From NCBI GenBank assembly GCA_938049385.1, contig CALIBQ010000042.1:1-35846 (forward strand): a DNA stretch of 35,846 nucleotides. The letters are read 5' to 3'. Of the stretch, positions 865-9,921 are shown piece after piece. Source of the stretch: an uncultured Anaerolineae bacterium (GTDB lineage: Bacteria > Chloroflexota > Anaerolineae > JACIWP01). Numbering within the stretch: the first letter of the stretch is position 1; every line of letters starts with the position of its first letter. The notes under the pieces were generated by a model. The model was not told the DNA's origin, ran no database searches, and was given only the letters and a program-made list of their open reading frames with translations. The position numbers and the translations under genes are program-made.

Positions 865-909
865 GGGCGGTGGTGTTCTCTGTCGAGCACTGCCGCCCTA
901 TCGTTTTTT
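865..909 (+). terminator. Probable intrinsic terminator for comEA
   Basis: An 11-bp stem containing two G-U pairs (865-875 with 888-898) encloses a 12-nt loop. Six T residues follow at 904-909, five bases after the stem. It sits between the convergent comEA and aroQ genes and reads in the comEA direction. The T-run overlaps the aroQ stop codon on the other strand. The distance from stem to T-tract makes it less than ideal. Confidence 0.45.
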
Positions 910-1354
910 ACGGGCGGCGCCGCAGGTATCCGACCAGGCCCCGCAGTCCCAGCAAATAGCTTTCCGGCCCGAACCCGCAGATGGTGCCGATACAGACCGG
1001 CGCCAGGTACGAGTGGTGTCGGAACGGCTCGCGGGCAAAGATGTTGGAGAGGTGCACCTCCACCGCCGGCAGGCCGACGCCGGCGACGGCGTCCCGCAGG
1101 GCAATGCTGGTGTGCGTGTAAGCGCCGGCGTTGATGAGCACGCCATCCGCCCATTCCGCCGACTCATGTAGGGCGTCCACCAGCACACCCTCGTGATTCG
1201 ACTGGACAATGCGCAGTTCCACGTCCAGCTCTTGCGCGAGTTCCCGCAAGGACTGGTTGATTTCATCCAGGGTGGCATGGCCGTAAATGCCCACTTCACG
1301 CCGGCCCAGCAGGTTAAGGTTGGGGCCGTGCAGGACCAGCACATGTAGCGCCAT
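908..1354 (-). CDS. aroQ: Type II 3-dehydroquinate dehydratase
   Basis: The 148-aa product is the usual size for the dodecameric type II enzyme, which removes water from 3-dehydroquinate to give 3-dehydroshikimate (third shikimate step). It opens with the family signature HGPNLNLLG (residues 9-17), followed by the catalytic Tyr in GIYGH (about residue 24). The substrate-binding [10 protein letters not shown] segment (about 75-84) and EVHLSN (about 98-103) are also present. The ATG at 1354 has a GGAGG ribosome site 5 bases upstream. The gene lies 14 bp after aroKB and is the last gene of the aromatic operon. It ends facing comEA. Confidence 0.97.
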
Positions 1355-1368
1355 AGGAACCTCCTAAA

Positions 1369-2958
1369 TCATCTGGTTGAAATGCGGGTCCGCCGCAGTG
1401 CCTCCAGGACGACCTCTGCCGGCACATCCTCTGCAATGTCCACTGCCCCGATGGTGCGCGGCAGGATCCAGCGCAGGCGGCCGTGCCGGCGCTTCTTGTC
1501 GCTCGCCATAGCGTCCAGCACCTGTTCCGGGGTGAATATACCGGGCCAGCCGGTTGGCAGTCCCAGATGTCGGAGCGCACCGCCGATGCGCTCGGCCAAC
1601 GTCGGCGTACAGTATCCCATCATCTCCGCGATCTGCACAGCGATCATCATGCCGCCGGCTACCGCCTCGCCGTGCGGCATGCTGTAGCCGCTGAGGCGCT
1701 CCAGGGCGTGGCCGGCCGTATGCCCTAGGTTGAGGACGGCGCGCCAGCCCTGTTCATGGGGGTCGCGCTGGACCACGTCAATCTTCACCTGCAGGGCGCG
1801 GGCGATGACCTCGGACCAGGGCCAGGGCGGGCCGGCGGTCAGGATATCGAACAGCGCCGGGTCGGCGATGACAGCGGCTTTCAGCGCCTCGGCCAGCCCC
1901 TGCCGCATCTGCGCCGGCGGCAGGCTCTCCAGCACCAGCGGATCAATCAGCACCAAGCGCGGCTGATGGAACGCCCCCACCAGGTTCTTGCCGCGCGGCA
2001 GGTCCACGCCGGTCTTGCCGCCCACCGAGGCATCAATCATCGCCAGGAGCGTAGTCGGCACCTGCACGAACGGCACGCCGCGCATATAGGTTGCGGCGGC
2101 GAACCCTGCGACATCGCCGACGACGCCGCCCCCCAGCGCCACCACCAGGCCGGCACGGTCCAGGCCGGCAGACAGGAACTGCTCGTACAGGCCGGCGGCA
2201 GTTTCCAGCGTCTTGAAGGACTCCCCATCGGGTATCAGGGCCGGCCAGGCTTCCAGGCCGGCGGCTCCCAGGCTCTTCCGCAGGTGCTCGCCGTACAATC
2301 CCCACACCGTTGGGTTGCTGACGATGACGATCCTGCTCCAGCTACCCAGCCGGCGGATGAGAAGGCCGGCCTGCTCCAGCGCTCCCTCCAGAATGTAAAT
2401 ATGATACGCGCAATCAGTGAGTTCAACCCTGAGTAAATGGGCGCGCCAGATGCGCAGGACCGCCTCGACCACCTCCTCGATTGGCCGGCCGGTGGTATCC
2501 ACGTGCCAGGTCAGGGCGGAGTAGGCGGCCCGGCGCCCTTCCAAGATGCGCCGCGCCTCCGCCAAAGGGTCGGGAGCGTTCAGGAGCGGCCGGCCGTGCT
2601 CGCCGGCCAGCCGCTTGATCACCTCTTCCGGTGGTGCCCACAGGCATACCACCCGCCCGCTGGCCTCCATCACTTGGCGGTTGGCCGGGTTGACCAGCGC
2701 CCCGCCGCCGGTGGCGATGACCAGGCCGGCCAGGCCGGCCAGCTCGCGGCAGACCTCCGCTTCTATTTGGCGGAAGGCCGGCTCTCCCATCCGAGCGAAA
2801 ATTTCAGGAATGGACATCCCGGCGCGTTCTGCAATCAGCTCATCCATGTCCACGAACGGCCGGCCCAGCCGCTCCGCCACCCGCCGGCCGACAGTGCTTT
2901 TGCCGGTGCCCATGAAACCGGTCAGGATGAGGTTGCGGGAATCTGCTGTGTCTGTCAT
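1369..2958 (-). CDS. aroKB: Bifunctional shikimate kinase / 3-dehydroquinate synthase fusion (AroKB)
   Basis: A single 529-aa frame encodes two shikimate enzymes. Residues 1 to about 170 form shikimate kinase, with a P-loop GFMGTGKST at 14-22, the shikimate-binding DMDELI and the ATGGGAL motif near 82. Residues from about 172 to the end form 3-dehydroquinate synthase, with the NAD- and metal-binding region GGGVVGDVAG, then PTTLLAMIDASVGGKTG and later NLGHTAGHALE. The two parts catalyse steps 5 and 2, so they are not consecutive. Fusions in this order are known, for example in Thermotoga. No stop or frameshift separates the halves. The ATG overlaps the aroC stop codon by 4 bp (ATGA), implying translational coupling. 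Confidence 0.96.
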   Translation of the reverse strand: MTDTADSRNLILTGFMGTGKSTVGRRVAERLGRPFVDMDELIAERAGMSIPEIFARMGEPAFRQIEAEVCRELAGLAGLVIATGGGALVNPANRQVMEASGRVVCLWAPPEEVIKRLAGEHGRPLLNAPDPLAEARRILEGRRAAYSALTWHVDTTGRPIEEVVEAVLRIWRAHLLRVELTDCAYHIYILEGALEQAGLLIRRLGSWSRIVIVSNPTVWGLYGEHLRKSLGAAGLEAWPALIPDGESFKTLETAAGLYEQFLSAGLDRAGLVVALGGGVVGDVAGFAAATYMRGVPFVQVPTTLLAMIDASVGGKTGVDLPRGKNLVGAFHQPRLVLIDPLVLESLPPAQMRQGLAEALKAAVIADPALFDILTAGPPWPWSEVIARALQVKIDVVQRDPHEQGWRAVLNLGHTAGHALERLSGYSMPHGEAVAGGMMIAVQIAEMMGYCTPTLAERIGGALRHLGLPTGWPGIFTPEQVLDAMASDKKRRHGRLRWILPRTIGAVDIAEDVPAEVVLEALRRTRISTR

Positions 2959-4106
2959 CGCTCGCTTCCCAACAGCGGATCGTCCAGCACGACGGCCTCG
3001 CGCTGGAAATGGGCGCGCACATCTTCTATGTGATCGCCGCCGAATTTCTCCAGGAAAGCGTCGGCCAGCACCCAGGCCACCACCGCTTCCCCCACGATGG
3101 ATGCCGCCGGCACAGCGCAGACATCGGAGCGCTCGTACTGCGTCATGGCCGGCGCTCCCGTGCGCATGTCCACCGAGCGGCGCTGGGTGAGGGTGGTGGG
3201 GATGGGTTTCATGGCGGCGCGCACGACGAGCGGCATGCCGTTGGTCATGCCGCCCTCCAGCCCGCCGGCGCGGTTCGAGACGCGCCGCGGCCGGCAGTGT
3301 GCCCCGGGCAGGAATTCATCGTGCACCTGCGTGCCGGGCAGGCCGGCATTCTCGAAGGCCGGCCCAATTTCCACCCCTTTCACCGCTGGGATGCTCATCA
3401 CTGCCGCGGCCAGCCGGGCGTCCAGCCGGCGGTCGGCCTGCACGTGGCTTCCCAGCCCCACTGGCAGGCCCACCGCCCCGACCACGAAAATGCCGCCCAG
3501 GGAATCGCCGGCGGCCCGGGCAGAATCAATGGCCTCGCGCATGGCCTGGGCCGCTGTGGGGTCCGGACAGCGTACATCGTTCTCTTCCGCGCTTGCCCAC
3601 AGTGCCGGCAGAGGTCTATCCGGGATATCTGCCGCCGCCGGTCCAATGCGCTCCACATAGCTTCCCACCCGGATGCCGAACTGCCTCAGAAGCATCTTCG
3701 CCACCGCGCCGACCGCCACCCGCGCCGCCGTCTCGCGGGCGCTGGCGCGCTCCAGCACCGGCCGGGCATCATCGAAGCCGTATTTGACCATGCCGGCGTA
3801 GTCGGCGTGGCCGGGGCGCGGCACGGTAACTGCCGGCAGGGGGCGGTCGCGCCAGTTCTCCCAATCGCGGTTGGCGATAGACAGCACCAGCGGCGCGCCG
3901 CTGGTGCACCCCTGCCATATGCCGCCCAGGATGGCGACCTCGTCTCGCTCGATCTGCATGCGGCCGCCGCGGCCGTACCCGACCTGGCGCCGGCGCAGTT
4001 CGGCATTAATATCCTCGGCCCGAACCTGCAGTCCCGCCGGCAGGCCGTCAATCACTGCCACCAGCGCCGGCCCGTGTGATTCTCCGCCTGTCAGAAAACG
4101 CAGCAT
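2955..4106 (-). CDS. aroC: Chorismate synthase
   Basis: This 383-aa protein matches chorismate synthase, which makes chorismate from EPSP using reduced FMN (last common step). Visible signatures are GGESHGPAL near residue 7, the RxxGYGRGGRM segment near 45, and ERASARETAARVAVGA near 130, which helps bind flavin and substrate. Near residues 285-290 is the conserved GGMTNG block. Length is normal for bacterial enzymes. The gene follows aroE after 9 bp and its stop overlaps the aroKB start. There is no flavin reductase domain, so it would be the monofunctional type that relies on an external source of reduced FMN. Confidence 0.97.
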   Translation of the reverse strand: MLRFLTGGESHGPALVAVIDGLPAGLQVRAEDINAELRRRQVGYGRGGRMQIERDEVAILGGIWQGCTSGAPLVLSIANRDWENWRDRPLPAVTVPRPGHADYAGMVKYGFDDARPVLERASARETAARVAVGAVAKMLLRQFGIRVGSYVERIGPAAADIPDRPLPALWASAEENDVRCPDPTAAQAMREAIDSARAAGDSLGGIFVVGAVGLPVGLGSHVQADRRLDARLAAAVMSIPAVKGVEIGPAFENAGLPGTQVHDEFLPGAHCRPRRVSNRAGGLEGGMTNGMPLVVRAAMKPIPTTLTQRRSVDMRTGAPAMTQYERSDVCAVPAASIVGEAVVAWVLADAFLEKFGGDHIEDVRAHFQREAVVLDDPLLGSER

Positions 4107-4115
4107 ATCTGCCCC

Positions 4116-4964
4116 CTATGCTTCCCCCAACGCGCGCAGGCAGGCCTGGCGCATCACCTCAACCGGCGCATCCTGCCCGGTCCAGTGCTTGAACGCCACC
4201 GCACCCTGCCAGATTAACATCTCCAGCCCGCTGACCGCCCGTGCGCCGGCCTCGCGCGCCTGCCGTAATAAGACTGTCTCCCGCGGCCGATAGACCAGGT
4301 CCATGACTGCCATGCCCGGGTGCAGGTGCACCTCCGCCGGCAGGGGGCTTTCCCCGGCGTGATGCGGCCACATGCCGACCGGAGTACAGTTCACCACCAA
4401 GTCCACCTCCGCCGGCGCCTGCTCTACCGCCTCCACACTGCCCCCCTCTACGGTCGCGCGCATGTCATCGGCCAGCCGGCGGGCGCGCGCCGGCGTACGG
4501 GCATAGATGAGCACCTGTGCGCCGCGCAGGAGCAGGCCGTAGACGGCGGCGCGTGCCGACCCGCCGGCGCCCAGCACCAGCGCGCGCCGGCCGTGCAGAG
4601 GCACCTCTGCTTGATCCAGCGCGGCCAGGAAACCGTGCACGTCGGTGTTGTCGCCGATCAGGTACTCCCCATCCACGCAAATGGTGTTCACTGCGCCCAC
4701 CGCTTTTGCCGCCGGCGAGAGGACGTCCAGGAAGGGGATGACCGTCTCTTTGTGCGGGATAGTGACGTTGGCGCCGGCCAACCCCAGCGCCCGCAGGCCT
4801 CGCACGGCATCGCCCAGATACTGCGGCGGGACCGGGAAAGCCGCATAACGCCAGTTCAGGCCCAGTGCCTCAAAGGCGGCGTTGTGCATCACTGGGGAAA
4901 GGGAATGCTCCACCGGCCAGCCGATAATGCCCGTCAAACGCGTGTTTGCGTCCATGCCGCTCAT
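4116..4964 (-). CDS. aroE: Shikimate dehydrogenase (NADP+)
   Basis: The 282-aa product carries the AroE substrate-binding start GWPVEHSLSPVMHNAAF (residues 15-31) and the catalytic Lys in NVTIPHKE (about 87). It also has a Rossmann glycine-rich loop GAGGSARAAV (about 132-141) and the C-terminal family motif GLEMLIWQGAVAF. It reduces 3-dehydroshikimate to shikimate. Two starts are possible, ATG at 4964 and an ATG three codons later. The AGGAGG ribosome site lies inside the last codons of aroA, 6 bp upstream, which supports coupling to aroA translation. It has the normal length and all key residues. Confidence 0.96.
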   Translation of the reverse strand: MSGMDANTRLTGIIGWPVEHSLSPVMHNAAFEALGLNWRYAAFPVPPQYLGDAVRGLRALGLAGANVTIPHKETVIPFLDVLSPAAKAVGAVNTICVDGEYLIGDNTDVHGFLAALDQAEVPLHGRRALVLGAGGSARAAVYGLLLRGAQVLIYARTPARARRLADDMRATVEGGSVEAVEQAPAEVDLVVNCTPVGMWPHHAGESPLPAEVHLHPGMAVMDLVYRPRETVLLRQAREAGARAVSGLEMLIWQGAVAFKHWTGQDAPVEVMRQACLRALGEA

Positions 4965-4970
4965 CCTTAT

Positions 4971-6293
4971 TCATCCTCCTGACGTCCGGATTTGGGCGCC
5001 CAGCGCGGCGAGGGTGTCTATAAATCCCGGGTACGAATCAGCGGCACAGCCAGCATCCTGCACGACCGTTTCGCCGTCGGCGACCAGGCCGGCGACCATC
5101 ATGCACATCGCCACGCGGTGGTCGCCGCCGCTGTCCACCACCGCGCCGCGCAGGGACGTTGGCCCTTCGATGACCATGCCGTCAGGAAGCTCCTCCACCC
5201 GCGCCCCCAGCCGGCGCAACTGCGCCGTCATGGCCGTGATGCGGTCCGTCTCTTTGACGCGCAGTTCCGCCGCGTCGCGAATGACGGTTTGGCCGTGCGC
5301 CTGGGCGGCCACCACCGCCAGGACCGGCAGTTCGTCTATGGCGCGCGGTATGAGGTCGCCGGCGACTTCCGTCCCCCGCAGTTCGCCGGCCCGCACCCGC
5401 AGGTCGCCCACCGGTTCGTCGCCGGCCGTGTGCTGGTCCAGCACCTCGATGCACGCGCCCATGGCCCACAGCGCGTCCAGCAGGCCGGTGCGCGTGGGGT
5501 TCAGCCCCACGTTCTCGATGATGATATCCGAACCAGGCACCAGGACGCCGGCGGCAATGAGAAAGGCCGCGGAGGACAAATCTCCCGGCACCTCCATCTG
5601 CAGGGGCGTAAGGTGGCGCGCCGGCCGGATGCGCACGCTCAACCCATCCTCGTAAATGTCGGCGCCCATGGCGCGCAGCATGCGCTCCGTATGATCGCGC
5701 GAAGGGGCCGGGTTATGCAAATGGGTTTCCCCCTCGGCGTACAGGCCGGCGAGCAGGAGCGCCGATTTCACCTGAGCCGAGGCCACCGGCAGGGTATAAG
5801 TGATGCCGTGTAAGGGCCGGCCCTCAATGGATAACGGCGCGCGGCCGTCTGTATCGCGGATGACCGCCCCCATCAGGCGCAGGGGTTCCGTCACGCGCCG
5901 CATGGGGCGCTTGAGAAGCTGGGGGTCACCGGTGAGCATCACATCGAAGGGCTGGCCGGCCAGGATGCCGCACAGCAGGCGCATGGTGGTGCCGGAGCGC
6001 TGGCAGTCGAGCGGCCCGGCCGGCGCACGCAGGCCGCGCAGTCCTTGTCCCCGGATGGTCAGCCGGCCCATGCCGTGACGTGGGTCGAAGTCGTGGACGC
6101 GAATGTCCACCCCCAGTGCCTGCATACAGCGCATGGTGGCGGAGCAGTCCCCCTCCAATAGGGCGCCGGCGACCTCCGACGTCCCATCCGCCAGCGCGCC
6201 CAGCAGGAGGGCGCGGTGAGAGATGGACTTGTCGCCCGGCACGCGGACGCGGCCCCTCAGCGGCTGACGAGATAGGGTGACGACGGCGTTCAT
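4971..6293 (-). CDS. aroA: 5-enolpyruvylshikimate-3-phosphate synthase
   Basis: This 440-aa protein is EPSP synthase, which transfers enolpyruvate from PEP to shikimate 3-phosphate. The first signature, PGDKSISHRALLLGAL (about 18-33), binds both substrates. The second, LDCQRSGTTMRLLCGIL (about 94-110), contains the PEP-binding region. The late segment ELRVKETDRI (about 343-352) is also characteristic. The Ser after Gln-Arg, where many plant-type enzymes have Asn-Ala-Gly-Thr, suggests a class other than the glyphosate-sensitive class I. That is an inference only. The start codon overlaps the tyrA stop by 4 bp (ATGA). Confidence 0.96.
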   Translation of the reverse strand: MNAVVTLSRQPLRGRVRVPGDKSISHRALLLGALADGTSEVAGALLEGDCSATMRCMQALGVDIRVHDFDPRHGMGRLTIRGQGLRGLRAPAGPLDCQRSGTTMRLLCGILAGQPFDVMLTGDPQLLKRPMRRVTEPLRLMGAVIRDTDGRAPLSIEGRPLHGITYTLPVASAQVKSALLLAGLYAEGETHLHNPAPSRDHTERMLRAMGADIYEDGLSVRIRPARHLTPLQMEVPGDLSSAAFLIAAGVLVPGSDIIIENVGLNPTRTGLLDALWAMGACIEVLDQHTAGDEPVGDLRVRAGELRGTEVAGDLIPRAIDELPVLAVVAAQAHGQTVIRDAAELRVKETDRITAMTAQLRRLGARVEELPDGMVIEGPTSLRGAVVDSGGDHRVAMCMMVAGLVADGETVVQDAGCAADSYPGFIDTLAALGAQIRTSGG

Positions 6294-7165
6294 AGGTTCA
6301 GCTCCCGCCGCCGGCGGCTGGCCGCCTCGATGTGCTCGCGCAGCGCGGCTTCACCGCCGGCCTCGATGAGTGCATAAAGCTGGTCGAACTGCTGTCGGAA
6401 CACTTTCATGGTGTGCAAAATGTTCTCCTGATTGGTGAGGAAGATGTCGAGCATCATGTCGGGGTCGCTGGCGGCCAGACGAGTGGTATCGCGAAAGCCG
6501 CTGGCGGCCAGGGACCAGAGGTCAGGGTCCTGCTGAGCGCCGGCCATGACCGCTCCCATCAGCGAGAGCGCTACCGTATGCGGCAAGTGGCTGACCCACG
6601 CCACCATGCGGTCATGGTCCGCGGCATCCAGCACCATAGGCACCGCGCCCACCGCCTGGGCCAATGCCTTGCCCCGCGCCAGGGCCTGCGGCGAGGTGCG
6701 CGGCAGTGGGGAGAGGAGGAAGGGCCGGCCGGCGAACAGGTCCGGCTGGGCGGCTCCGATGCCGGCCTGCTCCTTGCCGCACATGGGGTGGCCGCCCAGA
6801 GGCTGAACATGGGCCGGCAGATGTTCCATGGCCTGCACGATGCGCGCTTTTGTGCTGGCCAGGTCCATGACCAGAGCGCCGGCCTGCAAATGCGGCCCAA
6901 GCTCTGGGAGCTGGCGCAGTATGACTCGCGGCGGGGTCGCCAGCACGACGATATCCGCCTGCGCCGCACCCTCGGCCAGGTCGGTGGTGCCGTGGTGGAT
7001 CCAGCCGCGCTCCAGGGCGGCGCGCAGGCTTTCCGGCCGGCGTGAGACGCCCACCACACGCCGGCAGGCACGGCGCGTAGCCAAGGCACCGGCCAGCGAG
7101 CCGCCCATCAATCCCAGGCCGACCACTGCTACGCATGCGCCGGCAAAATCGGGCTCCTCGCTCAT
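6290..7165 (-). CDS. tyrA: Prephenate dehydrogenase
   Basis: The 291-aa product has an N-terminal dinucleotide-binding fold ([15 protein letters not shown], about 14-28). It also has the prephenate-binding signature [12 protein letters not shown] (about 126-137) and the WVSHLPH segment (about 193-199). It oxidatively decarboxylates prephenate to 4-hydroxyphenylpyruvate, the precursor of tyrosine. The length corresponds to a catalytic domain only. There is no C-terminal ACT domain, so feedback by tyrosine may act elsewhere, for example on DAHP synthase or on the leader. It could instead prefer arogenate; sequence alone does not settle this. Both ends overlap neighbours by 4 bp. Confidence 0.93.
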
Positions 7166-8193
7166 ACGCCGGCCTCCAGCGTGAGCTTACGGTCCACGGC
7201 CTGGGCCACGCGTGCCAGGTCGCGCATCAGCGCGGCGAACTTGTCCGGTTTGAGCGACTGCATGCCGTCTGAGAGCGCTTCTTCCGGCCGAGGATGCACC
7301 TCAATAAGGAGGCCATCGGCGCCGGCTGCTACCGCCGCCTTGGCTACCGCCGGCACCAGGTCCCATTTGCCGGTGCCGTGGCTGGGGTCCAGCAGGACCG
7401 GCAGATGGCTGAGCTGTTTCAGCACCGGCACGGCGTTAATATCCACGGTGTTGCGGGTGTAGGTTTCGAAGGTGCGGATGCCGCGCTCGCAGAGGATGAC
7501 GTTGGGATTGCCGGCGGCCAGGATGTACTCCGCGGACATCAGAAACTCCTCTAACCGGGACATCATGCCGCGTTTTAGGAGCACCGGCTTGTGTGTCAGG
7601 CCCACCTCGTGCAGGAGGGCAAAGTTCTGGGAGTTGCGGGCGCCGATCTGGAGGATATCCGCATATTCGCTGACCAGCTCTACGTCTGTGGGGCTGACGA
7701 CCTCGGTCACGACCGGCAGGCCGGTCAGCGCCCGCGCCTCCGCCAGGTATTCCAGGCCTTCTCTGCCCAGCCCCTGGAAGGAATACGGGGAAGTGCGCGG
7801 TTTGAAGGCGCCGCCGCGCAGGATCTGGGCGCCGGCCTTCTTCACAGCAATGGCGGTTTCGATGAGCTGTTCGCGCGATTCCACGGCGCAGGGGCCGGCC
7901 ATGACCACAATCTCCTCGCCGCCGATGCGCACGTTCCCCACCTGCACCACAGTGCGTCCCTGCACGAACTCACTGCTGGCCAGCTTGAATGGGTGCAGGA
8001 TAGGTACTGCCCGCTCCACACCGTTAAGGCGCTCGATCTGGTGCACGGGCAGATTGCGCTCGTCGCCGATGATGCCGACGATGGTGCGTTCCTCACCGAC
8101 CGACACATGGGTGCGCAGACCGAAGGAGTGCACTCGCTCTATCACTGCCTCCACATCTGCTTTTGTCGCGTCTCGCTTCATCACGATGATCAC
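7162..8193 (-). CDS. aroF: 3-deoxy-7-phosphoheptulonate (DAHP) synthase, type I beta with ferredoxin-like regulatory domain
   Basis: This 343-aa protein condenses PEP and erythrose 4-phosphate in the first step of the pathway. Residues 1 to about 70 resemble the ferredoxin-like regulatory domain of the Thermotoga-type enzyme, which mediates tyrosine feedback in that relative. The barrel follows, with GPCAVES (about 100-106), [16 protein letters not shown] (about 126-141), [18 protein letters not shown] and LDPSHGTGK. The start is GTG at 8193, with an AAAGGAGG ribosome site 7-8 bases upstream. It follows pheA after 21 bp. The gene name follows common usage for this class (aroF/aroG). Confidence 0.95.
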
Positions 8194-8214: not shown

Positions 8215-9069
8215 TTATTCACTGCCGTTATCGGTTTCCGCCGGCGTGGGGGCGGCGGGATACGAACCCAACACCTTGACGAAGGCCGCCCTGCGCAGGA
8301 GCCCCATGAGGGCTTTCTCACAGCGCGGCTCTTGCCAATGGCCCTCGAAATCCAGATAAAAGAGGTAATGCCAGGGCTTGTTGCGGCGGGGACGGGATTC
8401 CAGCTTGGTCAGGTTGATGTCCCGTTCGGCGAACTCGCCCAGGCAGTTGTAGAGGGCGCGCGGCACGTGCCGCGTGGCGAAGACCACCGAGGTCTTGCTG
8501 TGCTCCGTGCGCGGCGGGTCCTCTGTGCTGAGGACAAAGAAGCGGGTGTAGTTGAAGCGCAGGTCCTCGATATCGGCGTCGAGCACTTGGAGGCCGTACA
8601 TCTCGCCGGCCAGCCGGCTGGCGATGGCCGCCATGTCCGGCTGGGGGTTCTCGGCCAGGTCGCGGGCACTGCCGGCGGTGTCGTAGTAGCTTATCGGCTC
8701 GAAGTTGTGGCTGGCGATGTAGCGCTCGCACTGCGCCAGCGCCTGCGGGTGGGAGCGCACCCGCCGTATCTGCTCGATGGTTGTGCCGGGATTGGCCAGC
8801 AAGCAGTGCCGCACCCGCAGGATGACCTCCGCCCAGATTTTCAGGTCATATTCCAGCAAGAGGTCGTAGGACTGGTTGATGGAGCCGGCGGTGGAGTTCT
8901 CGATCGGCAGCATGCCGTGAGTGGCGCGCCCGCTCTCGATAGCCTCGAAGATTTCCTGCAGTGAGTGGCAGGGCAGGGTCTCGGTATCGCGCGGAAAATG
9001 CTGGTAGACCGCCTCTTCCGAATAGGCCCCGTGTTCTCCCTGGAAGGCGACCACAATCTTCCCCATCAT
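8215..9069 (-). CDS. pheA: Prephenate dehydratase with ACT domain
   Basis: The 284-aa product has an N-terminal catalytic domain with [13 protein letters not shown] and a [13 protein letters not shown] block (about 58-70). The catalytic TRFFVL motif follows near residue 175. The C-terminal ACT domain carries the LESRP motif (about 223-227), which binds phenylalanine in relatives. The enzyme converts prephenate to phenylpyruvate. No chorismate mutase domain is fused; that activity is supplied by aroH immediately upstream. The ATG at 9069 overlaps the aroH stop by 4 bp, and its ribosome site (GGAGG) lies within the end of aroH. Confidence 0.96.
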
Positions 9070-9440
9070 GAACCTCCTGTCAGGTCAGGACGCAGGGTTT
9101 GGGCGTCCCGTAGATACACATGCACGATTTCCTCCTGGCGTTTCTCGGTGTTCCAGTGCATCAGCACGCGCACACAGCGGGGCAAGCCGGCCGGCACTGG
9201 TATTTCCACGGCGCACATCAGCGGCGTGTGCCGCCAGCCCAGCTCGCGGGCCGCCTGCGCGGGGTAGGCGGCGTTCAGGTCCGGCGTGACGGTGAAGATG
9301 ATGCTGGCGATATCGGCCGGCATGATGCCGTTGGCCTCCGCCATCGCCAGCAGGAGTTCCCTGGTGGCGCGCAGGATTGCCTCCGGTGTGTTGGATTCGA
9401 CGGTGATGGCACCGCGCACCCCGCGACAGCAAAGCGCCAT
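9066..9440 (-). CDS. aroH: Monofunctional chorismate mutase, AroH class
   Basis: This 124-aa protein is the AroH-type trimeric chorismate mutase, like the Bacillus subtilis enzyme, which rearranges chorismate to prephenate. The start [14 protein letters not shown] carries the active-site Arg (about residue 6-8). [35 protein letters not shown] is preserved as a family-typical block, and the end VRVLMHWNT contains the second active-site Arg. The ATG at 9440 has a GAGGAGG site 7 bases upstream. It is the first structural gene behind the attenuator leader, and all nine genes to aroQ follow without a visible internal terminator. Confidence 0.95.
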
Positions 9441-9476
9441 GTGTGTACCTCCTCGATGCGTGCGGTTTTGGGAAAT

Positions 9477-9505
9477 AAAAAAGCGTGGAGCTTGCGCTCC
9501 ACGCT
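9477..9505 (-). terminator. Attenuator: intrinsic terminator in the aro operon leader
   Basis: On the minus strand a perfect 10-bp stem (9505-9496 with 9491-9482) closes a GCAA tetraloop. It continues into a T-run (9482-9477). It is a textbook intrinsic terminator placed 37 bp before the aroH start and about 225 nt after the predicted transcription start. Because it lies upstream of the first structural gene, it must be conditional. Its 5' arm (GCGTGGAGC) can alternatively pair with an upstream segment (see antiterminator). Confidence 0.92.
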
Positions 9506-9566
9506 GTATCCTCCTCGATACGCTGAGGGTAAGGCTATTGGGTCACTCCCTCAGCCGGCGTGAAGC
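9496..9566 (-). promoter_or_regulatory. Antiterminator pairing in the aro leader (regions 2:3)
   Basis: GCTTCACGC at 9566-9558 (minus strand) can pair over nine positions with GCGTGGAGC at 9504-9496, using eight Watson-Crick pairs and one G-U pair. The second segment is the 5' arm of the terminator stem, so the two structures exclude each other. The first segment lies in the last third of the leader ORF. A ribosome reaching the leader stop codon would cover it and favour termination. A ribosome held at the aromatic codons upstream would leave it free. Confidence 0.75.
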
Positions 9567-9704
9567 CCTCGCGCCCCGCGCGAAGGGAAAGTAATAGTAA
9601 TAAAAATACACGCCGGCAAAGGGCAGAGCGTTCACAGCGCGCGCGGACAGGAGGACTGCCGTGTCTTCCTGTTTCCAGATGTGATGCCGCGCGTCCGCTG
9701 TCAT
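9543..9704 (-). CDS. Aromatic leader peptide (attenuation ORF) of the aro operon
   Basis: This 53-codon frame begins with ATG at 9704, about 26 nt after the predicted transcription start, and ends with TGA at 9543. Codons 33-41 read YFYYYYFPF: five Tyr and three Phe in nine codons (9608-9582). It is followed by an Arg/Ala-rich end. Such a run just before mutually exclusive stems and a terminator is the hallmark of leader peptides such as those of pheA, trp and his operons. The true start is uncertain. In-frame GTG codons at 9635 and 9611 would give 30- or 22-residue peptides. The ATG has only a modest GAGGG site 11 bases upstream. No homologue was recognised; the function rests on composition and context. 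Confidence 0.8.
   Translation of the reverse strand: MTADARHHIWKQEDTAVLLSARAVNALPFAGVYFYYYYFPFARGARASRRLRE
9554..9617 (-). promoter_or_regulatory. Region 1:2 stem in the aro leader (anti-antiterminator)
   Basis: GCCGGCGTG at 9617-9609 is perfectly complementary over 9 bp to CACGCCGGC at 9562-9554 on the same transcript. Region 1 lies directly upstream of the Tyr/Phe codon run, where a stalled ribosome would cover it. Region 2 overlaps the antiterminator segment. When region 1 is free, this pairing would block antitermination and let the terminator form. Inside the loop, 9586-9566 can fold into a further 9-bp GC-rich hairpin. Confidence 0.7.
9649..9700 (-). repeat. Imperfect hairpin in the 5' part of the aro leader
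   Basis: On the minus strand ACAGGAAGAC (around 9674) pairs with GTCCTCCTGT (around 9652) with one mismatch and a short loop. The GC-rich flanks (around 9700 and 9640) can extend the stem. It falls in the first half of the leader ORF. It may be a pause hairpin or only a structured spacer. Confidence 0.4.
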
Positions 9705-9736
9705 ATTCCCGTGCGCCCTCAGAGTTTGATGATTAC

Positions 9737-9765
9737 ATCATAGCAAAGGGGCCAAAATTTGTCAA
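9737..9765 (-). promoter_or_regulatory. Sigma-70-type promoter of the aro operon
   Basis: Reading on the minus strand, a perfect -35 TTGACA (9765-9760), a 17-bp spacer and the -10 TATGAT (9742-9737) form a near-consensus housekeeping promoter. The predicted start is near 9730. It precedes the attenuator leader and the nine-gene aromatic operon. Such a strong promoter fits control by attenuation downstream rather than by weak initiation. Confidence 0.88.
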
Positions 9766-9778
9766 ATGGGCAAAATTG

Positions 9779-9915
9779 GGGGTGTTGGGAAAAAGATTGT
9801 CATTTGTGGGTATTTGGCTTATCGCCTGGCAGTTGAAACTGCAGCTGTGCCTGCGAAGCCTGCGCAGGCAGGCTTCGCAGTTGTTGCCACGGCTTCAGCC
9901 GCCGGGTCGCGGGTA
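9779..9915. mobile_element. Truncated MITE-like palindromic element (copy A)
   Basis: This stretch resembles the element at 21620-21800. Shared blocks are a GGTGTTG..AAAAAG end, GGGTATT, TCGCCTGGCAGTT-AAACTGC-GCTGTG, CCTGCGAAG, CCTGCGCAGGCTTCGCAG and CGGCTTCAGCCGC. The right terminal repeat is missing: similarity stops just before the atpC stop codon at 9922. It carries a near-perfect palindrome centred near 9868. It has no coding capacity and lies between atpC and the aro promoter. It probably represents a decayed non-autonomous element. Confidence 0.65.
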
Positions 9916-9921
9916 AGCCCG

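Follow-up and report, generated by a model that had tools for sequence, protein, structure and literature searches.

A Phe/Tyr leader peptide and candidate ribosome-mediated attenuator upstream of the aromatic amino acid operon in Anaerolineae

Which signal decides on transcription of the aromatic amino acid operon is the question raised by the intergenic span in front of aroH in an uncultured Anaerolineae bacterium. The source genome comprises 3.4 Mb and is 98% complete; the window, i.e., the whole stretch of 35,846 nt analysed here, is its contig 42. Nine genes span the route from DAHP synthase to chorismate (aroF, aroKB, aroQ, aroE, aroA, aroC), chorismate mutase (aroH) and both branches (pheA, tyrA), and no trp genes were found within this operon:

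9066-9440, minus strand: aroH, chorismate mutase (TIGR01796), with the Shine-Dalgarno sequence GAGGAGG at 9454-9448
8215-9069, minus strand: pheA, prephenate dehydratase (NF008865)
7162-8193, minus strand: aroF, DAHP synthase (NF006421, TIGR01361)
6290-7165, minus strand: tyrA, prephenate dehydrogenase family, best matches below the equivalog cut-offs
4971-6293, minus strand: aroA, EPSP synthase (TIGR01356)
4116-4964, minus strand: aroE, shikimate dehydrogenase (TIGR00507)
2955-4106, minus strand: aroC, chorismate synthase (TIGR00033)
1369-2958, minus strand: aroKB, fused shikimate kinase/3-dehydroquinate synthase (TIGR01357 in the C-terminal part)
908-1354, minus strand: aroQ, type II 3-dehydroquinate dehydratase (TIGR01088)

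An earlier note on this DNA had described the operon as complete, from DAHP synthase down to the Phe and Tyr branches. The gene set stands, but the first gene is aroH, and DAHP synthase comes only third. Sequence inspection places a promoter, a leader ORF, pairing regions and a terminator on the minus strand of the atpC-aroH intergenic span:

9737-9765, minus strand: sigma-70-type promoter TTGACA-17-TATGAT (TTGACA 9765-9760, 17-nt spacer, TATGAT 9742-9737)
9543-9704, minus strand: leader peptide ORF of 53 codons (MTADARHHIWKQEDTAVLLSARAVNALPFAGVYFYYYYFPFARGARASRRLRE), ATG at 9704, TGA at 9545-9543, the start ATG being aligned in the congener G002
9609-9617, minus strand: region 1, GCCGGCGTG, pairing with region 2 (P=0.99 without a ribosome) and covarying with it
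9582-9608, minus strand: aromatic control codons YFYYYYFPF, codons 33-41, the putative stall site; a run is kept class-wide
9554-9566, minus strand: region 2, GCTTCACGCCGGC, with 9562-9554 facing region 1 and 9566-9558 facing the terminator 5' arm (antiterminator)
9496-9505, minus strand: terminator 5' arm (region 3), AGCGTGGAGC, from sequence and folds
9474-9491, minus strand: terminator 3' arm (region 4), GCTCCACGCT at 9491-9482, and T tract 9481-9474

The promoter shows 11 of 12 consensus matches and is the sole promoter-like site in 9040-9920, where shuffles give 0.3, and the Shine-Dalgarno sequence of the leader ORF is weak. Region 1 pairs perfectly with CACGCCGGC at 9562-9554, and the antiterminator joins GCTTCACGC (9566-9558) to GCGTGGAGC (9504-9496) over 9 bp including one G-U. 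The terminator (9505-9482) is a perfect 10-bp stem with the loop GCAA (9495-9492), followed by a T-rich tract. Thus, the consensus promoter, the 53-codon ORF with its YFYYYYFPF run, the three mutually exclusive pairings and the perfect terminator claimed in the earlier note are all present base for base.

Taken together, this arrangement is very probably a classical ribosome-mediated attenuator of transcription, with the charged state of tRNA-Phe and tRNA-Tyr as its input and read-through into the aroH-pheA-aroF-tyrA-aroA-aroE-aroC-aroKB-aroQ operon as its output. It combines a run of end-product codons in a short ORF, an intrinsic terminator between this ORF and the first structural gene, an antiterminator backed by covariation, a region 1:2 pairing that a stalled ribosome could block, and a fitting position of the stop codon. 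From the elements, their conservation, their covariation and the predicted folds we infer stalling, coupling of translation to transcription, and termination. RNA polymerase would start just downstream of 9765-9737, with a ribosome following through the leader. A shortage of Phe-tRNA or Tyr-tRNA would make the ribosome stall within the YFYYYYFPF codons and cover region 1, leaving region 2 free to take the terminator 5' arm as it emerges, and transcription would continue. When both charged tRNAs are plentiful, the ribosome would reach the stop codon (9543) and cover region 2, allowing the terminator to form. Without any ribosome, region 2 would be held by region 1 and the terminator would form as well.

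Folded in silico with the nascent RNA truncated within the terminator loop and a ribosome footprint size taken from E. coli, the window leader behaves exactly as the switch that had been predicted. The ribosome-free leader gives P=0.99 for the 1:2 pairing and 0 for the antiterminator, a ribosome stalled on the run gives P=1.00 for the antiterminator (2:3), and a ribosome at the stop codon leaves neither (P 0). As a mean of 102 loci, the probability that the terminator arm pairs with upstream sequence is 0.80 in the stalled state, 0.71 without ribosome, 0.37 with the ribosome at the stop and 0.62 with a shuffled spacer, the stalled and ribosome-free states being only modestly separated because this measure counts any upstream pairing. 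With the full terminator present, the terminator is favoured at equilibrium even in the stalled state (P 0.98). Since it is the more stable structure once its 3' arm is out, the switch would have to be a kinetic one, and the model assumes that the antiterminator would form first and persist. The spacing is constant among the 101 loci having a run and a strong terminator: the run lies a median of 66 nt (54-81) from the stop codon and the stop codon 30 nt (23-40) from the terminator arm. Region 2 is mostly found at +31 to +56 of the run, so that, given such a footprint, the stop codon is placed for a terminating ribosome to mask it.

The aromatic-run leader is not a chance product. In fact, at least six aromatic codons out of ten occur upstream of aroH in 85 of 99 class loci (86%), as compared with 20 of 990 first-order Markov shuffles (2%) and 4 of 422 other stretches of the same loci (1%). 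At a threshold of at least eight out of ten, the counts are 29 of 99, 0 of 990 and 0 of 422. The leader RNA of the window folds better than 200 out of 200 shuffles (z -5.4). Other Phe/Tyr runs of this genome were considered as leaders and rejected: C31:17900 and C53:10596 both lie inside long genes, those of a Wzc-like chain-length/kinase protein and an ABC permease.

AroH is present in 269 of 396 genomes of the class (Anaerolineae, Chloroflexota), and 102 class loci had enough sequence upstream of aroH to be surveyed. An automatic scan found an aromatic-run leader at 95 of them and inspection raised this number to 97 by adding L093 and L102, which have short Tyr runs and a terminator. No recognisable leader was found at four loci (L014, L029, L091, L113), and L030 has a terminator and lacks a clear run. 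Promoters matching at least 10 of 12 consensus positions occur upstream of the run in 79% of the 102 loci vs. 1.6% of shuffles. The gene order aroH-(pheA)-aroF-tyrA-aroA-aroE-aroC-aroKB-aroQ is common, and in some families only aroH-aroF are in reach and the leader is still there. It also occurs in other families of the Chloroflexota (f71, f107, f110, f81, f94), and aroH loci from other phyla (L147-L181) had no convincing leader. In the congener, the promoter is aligned as TTGACA-17-TATCAT, and the DNA spanning region 1 through the terminator has 98.6% identity, compared with 88% for aroH (78% at its third positions) and 81% for the N-terminal part of the leader; this difference between the core and aroH argues for strong constraint on the RNA.

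Several individual loci are worth recording. Family f102 has an aroH without a leader, and here a second DAHP synthase gene (L209) carries MGSVSLQHQVWFAYYFTPPALLAGRRVLKR and a terminator; its own aromatic run reads WFAYYFTPP, the terminator is strong, and aroH-aroF of the same genome has no such leader. In f94, the leader NGSFYYYYRQ and the terminator AAGCAGAAGC..GCTTCTGCTTTTTTG stand upstream of aroH at L231, and L222 has a similar terminator and no clear run. Genome G189 (f41) contains two aroH loci, one of them with an f35-type leader and terminator (L054, G189:C8), which may be a bin contamination.

The comparison of related genomes bears on the pairings. The terminator arms vary by lineage, e.g., GCGTGGAGC, GACGCGGCT, GCGAGACC, GCGTCCCGC, GCGGTCC or GCGTGGGAC, and region 2, if it acts as antiterminator, must change along with them. 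In a swap test, the pairing of each region 2 with its own arm was compared with that obtained when arms were exchanged between loci (53 distinct arms, 20,000 permutations). The own arm gave z -5.7, with none of the 20,000 permutations as good, and the control segments gave +1.0 (upstream of the run) and +1.9 (spacer after the stop). A swap test of the same kind gave z -5.3 for region 1 with region 2. When a single random locus was drawn per family (34 families, 200 draws), the values were -4.3 for region 2 with the arm and -5.3 for region 1 with region 2, and +0.3, +1.7 and -0.4 for three control pairings. Matched pairs include CGTCCCACGC with GCGTGGGACG, GCGGGGCGC with GCGTCCCGC, and GGACCGC with GCGGTCC. 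Shuffling of contiguous stems had little power at single loci (24 of 81 below 0.05; combined p 3e-16) and was superseded by these tests. Both pairings, region 1:2 and region 2:arm, consequently covary. The earlier note had named a missing run or missing compensatory changes in relatives as grounds to abandon its reading; instead, run, terminator and both alternative pairings are kept over 34 families, with their sequences changing together.

As to the amino acids, the ten-codon runs of the 101 leaders contain 344 Phe, 312 Tyr and 33 Trp codons, and UUU is preferred over UUC in the runs (77% vs. 41% in aroH). The dominant amino acid is a matter of inference. The leader could respond in practice to only one of the two, with the other codons as passengers, as has been reported for the C. 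glutamicum aroR leader (Phe-Tyr-Phe), which responds to Phe, availability of Tyr having no effect (review PMC11802643). We regard this option as possible, but rather doubtful for the leaders studied here, where Phe and Tyr codons occur in similar numbers class-wide, both are present in 100 of the 101 leaders, and the runs are Tyr-dominated in operons without aroF. The latter was seen in family f20, where the run has Phe as its final aromatic residue in 13 of 14 operons with aroF after aroH and Tyr in 11 of 11 without aroF (aroH-tyrA-aroA), a shift that is suggestive only, as the aroF-less group may be one lineage and represent maybe one or two evolutionary events. Leader specificity thus seems to follow operon gene content. 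The presence of pheA in the operon made no difference to the Phe share of the run, and no leader was found at the relocated DAHP synthase genes of f20 (L202-L204).

An alternative option would be that the terminator answers another signal, such as a riboswitch ligand, a T-box or an RNA-binding protein. T-boxes are indeed in use in this genome, upstream of trpE (contig C24, L256), trpB (C63, L253), valS-, thrS-, leuS- and alaS-like genes, names assigned by eye from translations, as well as ~180 nt upstream of pheS (C10:82067-82355, L257). Nevertheless, we consider such a signal very improbable for the aro leader. Scanning the window, and the leader by itself, against Rfam gave no relevant match even at a permissive threshold, and neither the T-box covariance model (RF00230) nor the Rfam families of proteobacterial amino acid leaders matched it. 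Moreover, what is conserved is an in-frame run of Phe/Tyr codons with a fixed spacing to region 2, a feature that would be legible only to a ribosome in translation. With a T-box ahead of pheS, Phe charging may be read in one cell by both a T-box (pheS) and a leader peptide (aro operon). That the open frame with its conserved aromatic run encodes a small aromatic-rich protein, e.g., a membrane peptide, with the terminator only insulating the operon, is the least credible option, as peptide sequence and length are not conserved beyond the aromatic codons, the N-terminal part is the fastest to diverge (81% vs. 98.6% DNA identity for the RNA switch core in the congener), and the bases that follow the run change in concert with the terminator arm, which no protein would need.

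The kind of mechanism is known; what is notable here is its breadth, the double codon run and the size of the operon. The attenuators pheL-pheA, trpL and hisL of the Proteobacteria likewise rely on end-product codons in a leader, alternative pairings and an intrinsic terminator, but each responds to a single amino acid and is unrelated in sequence to the Chloroflexota leader, which has no Rfam match. Closest in logic is the ribosome-mediated attenuator AroR upstream of aroF in Corynebacterium glutamicum (Neshat, 2014, as described in PMC11802643), whose Phe/Tyr leader peptide precedes an operon with DAHP synthase; the likeness is drawn from this description and not from the AroR sequence. AroR belongs to the Actinobacteria, has three aromatic residues and is reported to show no effect of Tyr, whereas the Chloroflexota leader has a run of 6-8, precedes a nine-gene operon with both branches and is kept over a class. 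The uORFC-13-1 motif upstream of aroF in Acholeplasma (24 representatives; PMC8632094) also features a short ORF with Phe codon(s) before a terminator and a DAHP synthase gene, but differs by having at least one Phe codon, by its structure and by its narrow range (one genus and environmental sequences). T-box leaders (RF00230) read tRNA charging and control a terminator as well, but bind the tRNA directly and do so without translation; in Dehalococcoides, T-boxes on trpE and trpB have already been noted (PMC2494555). The literature searched, from which most subscription journals were missing, contained no description of a leader peptide or attenuator in Chloroflexi, Chloroflexus or Roseiflexus. 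The suggestion that the system may be undescribed in this lineage therefore holds within that literature, and an aromatic attenuator of the Chloroflexota has likely not been described before.

A survey in 2013 proposed that amino acid attenuators may stem from gamma-proteobacteria, with very few transfers (PMC3766115). An aromatic attenuator which is deeply conserved in Anaerolineae and further Chloroflexota families, and absent from Rfam, argues that the mechanism is older or has arisen more than once. Such attenuators escape notice because conservation is confined to the codon run and the pairings and does not extend to the sequence. We see the chances as even that shikimate operons in much of the Chloroflexota have as their ancestral control a vertically inherited dual Phe and Tyr attenuator, independent of the proteobacterial ones and working beside T-boxes for the same or related tRNAs (pheS, trpE, trpB). 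Its run would have been retuned with operon content, becoming Tyr-dominated after loss of aroF, and it would be found at a DAHP synthase gene where aroH has no leader (f102). The more than 100 natural variants could show in what way a single leader responds to two amino acids and how the sensor codons adapt to the gene content of the operon, and this genome offers a case of one pathway divided between two tRNA-sensing mechanisms.

Further observations concern the surroundings of the switch. A second reading frame (75-aa ORF 9502-9275), starting at a GTG within the terminator arm and with an SD-like GAGGAGG between leader stop and terminator, was considered and dropped, as just 6 of 102 spacers have an SD-like motif. 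The motif CTGAGGG is found at the 5' end of the leader (9721-9715, containing the SD-like GAGGG) and near its stop (9553-9547), and both copies are able to pair with CCCTCAG after the stop (9533-9526), an arrangement kept in the congener. This pairing could hide the Shine-Dalgarno sequence of the leader after one round of translation. Positions 9776-9900 of the window, directly upstream of the promoter, are occupied by an interspersed repeat of the palindromic GAAGCCTGC...GCAGGCTTC type, which is missing from the congener's locus and has ~40 other matches in the same genome at 70-90% identity.
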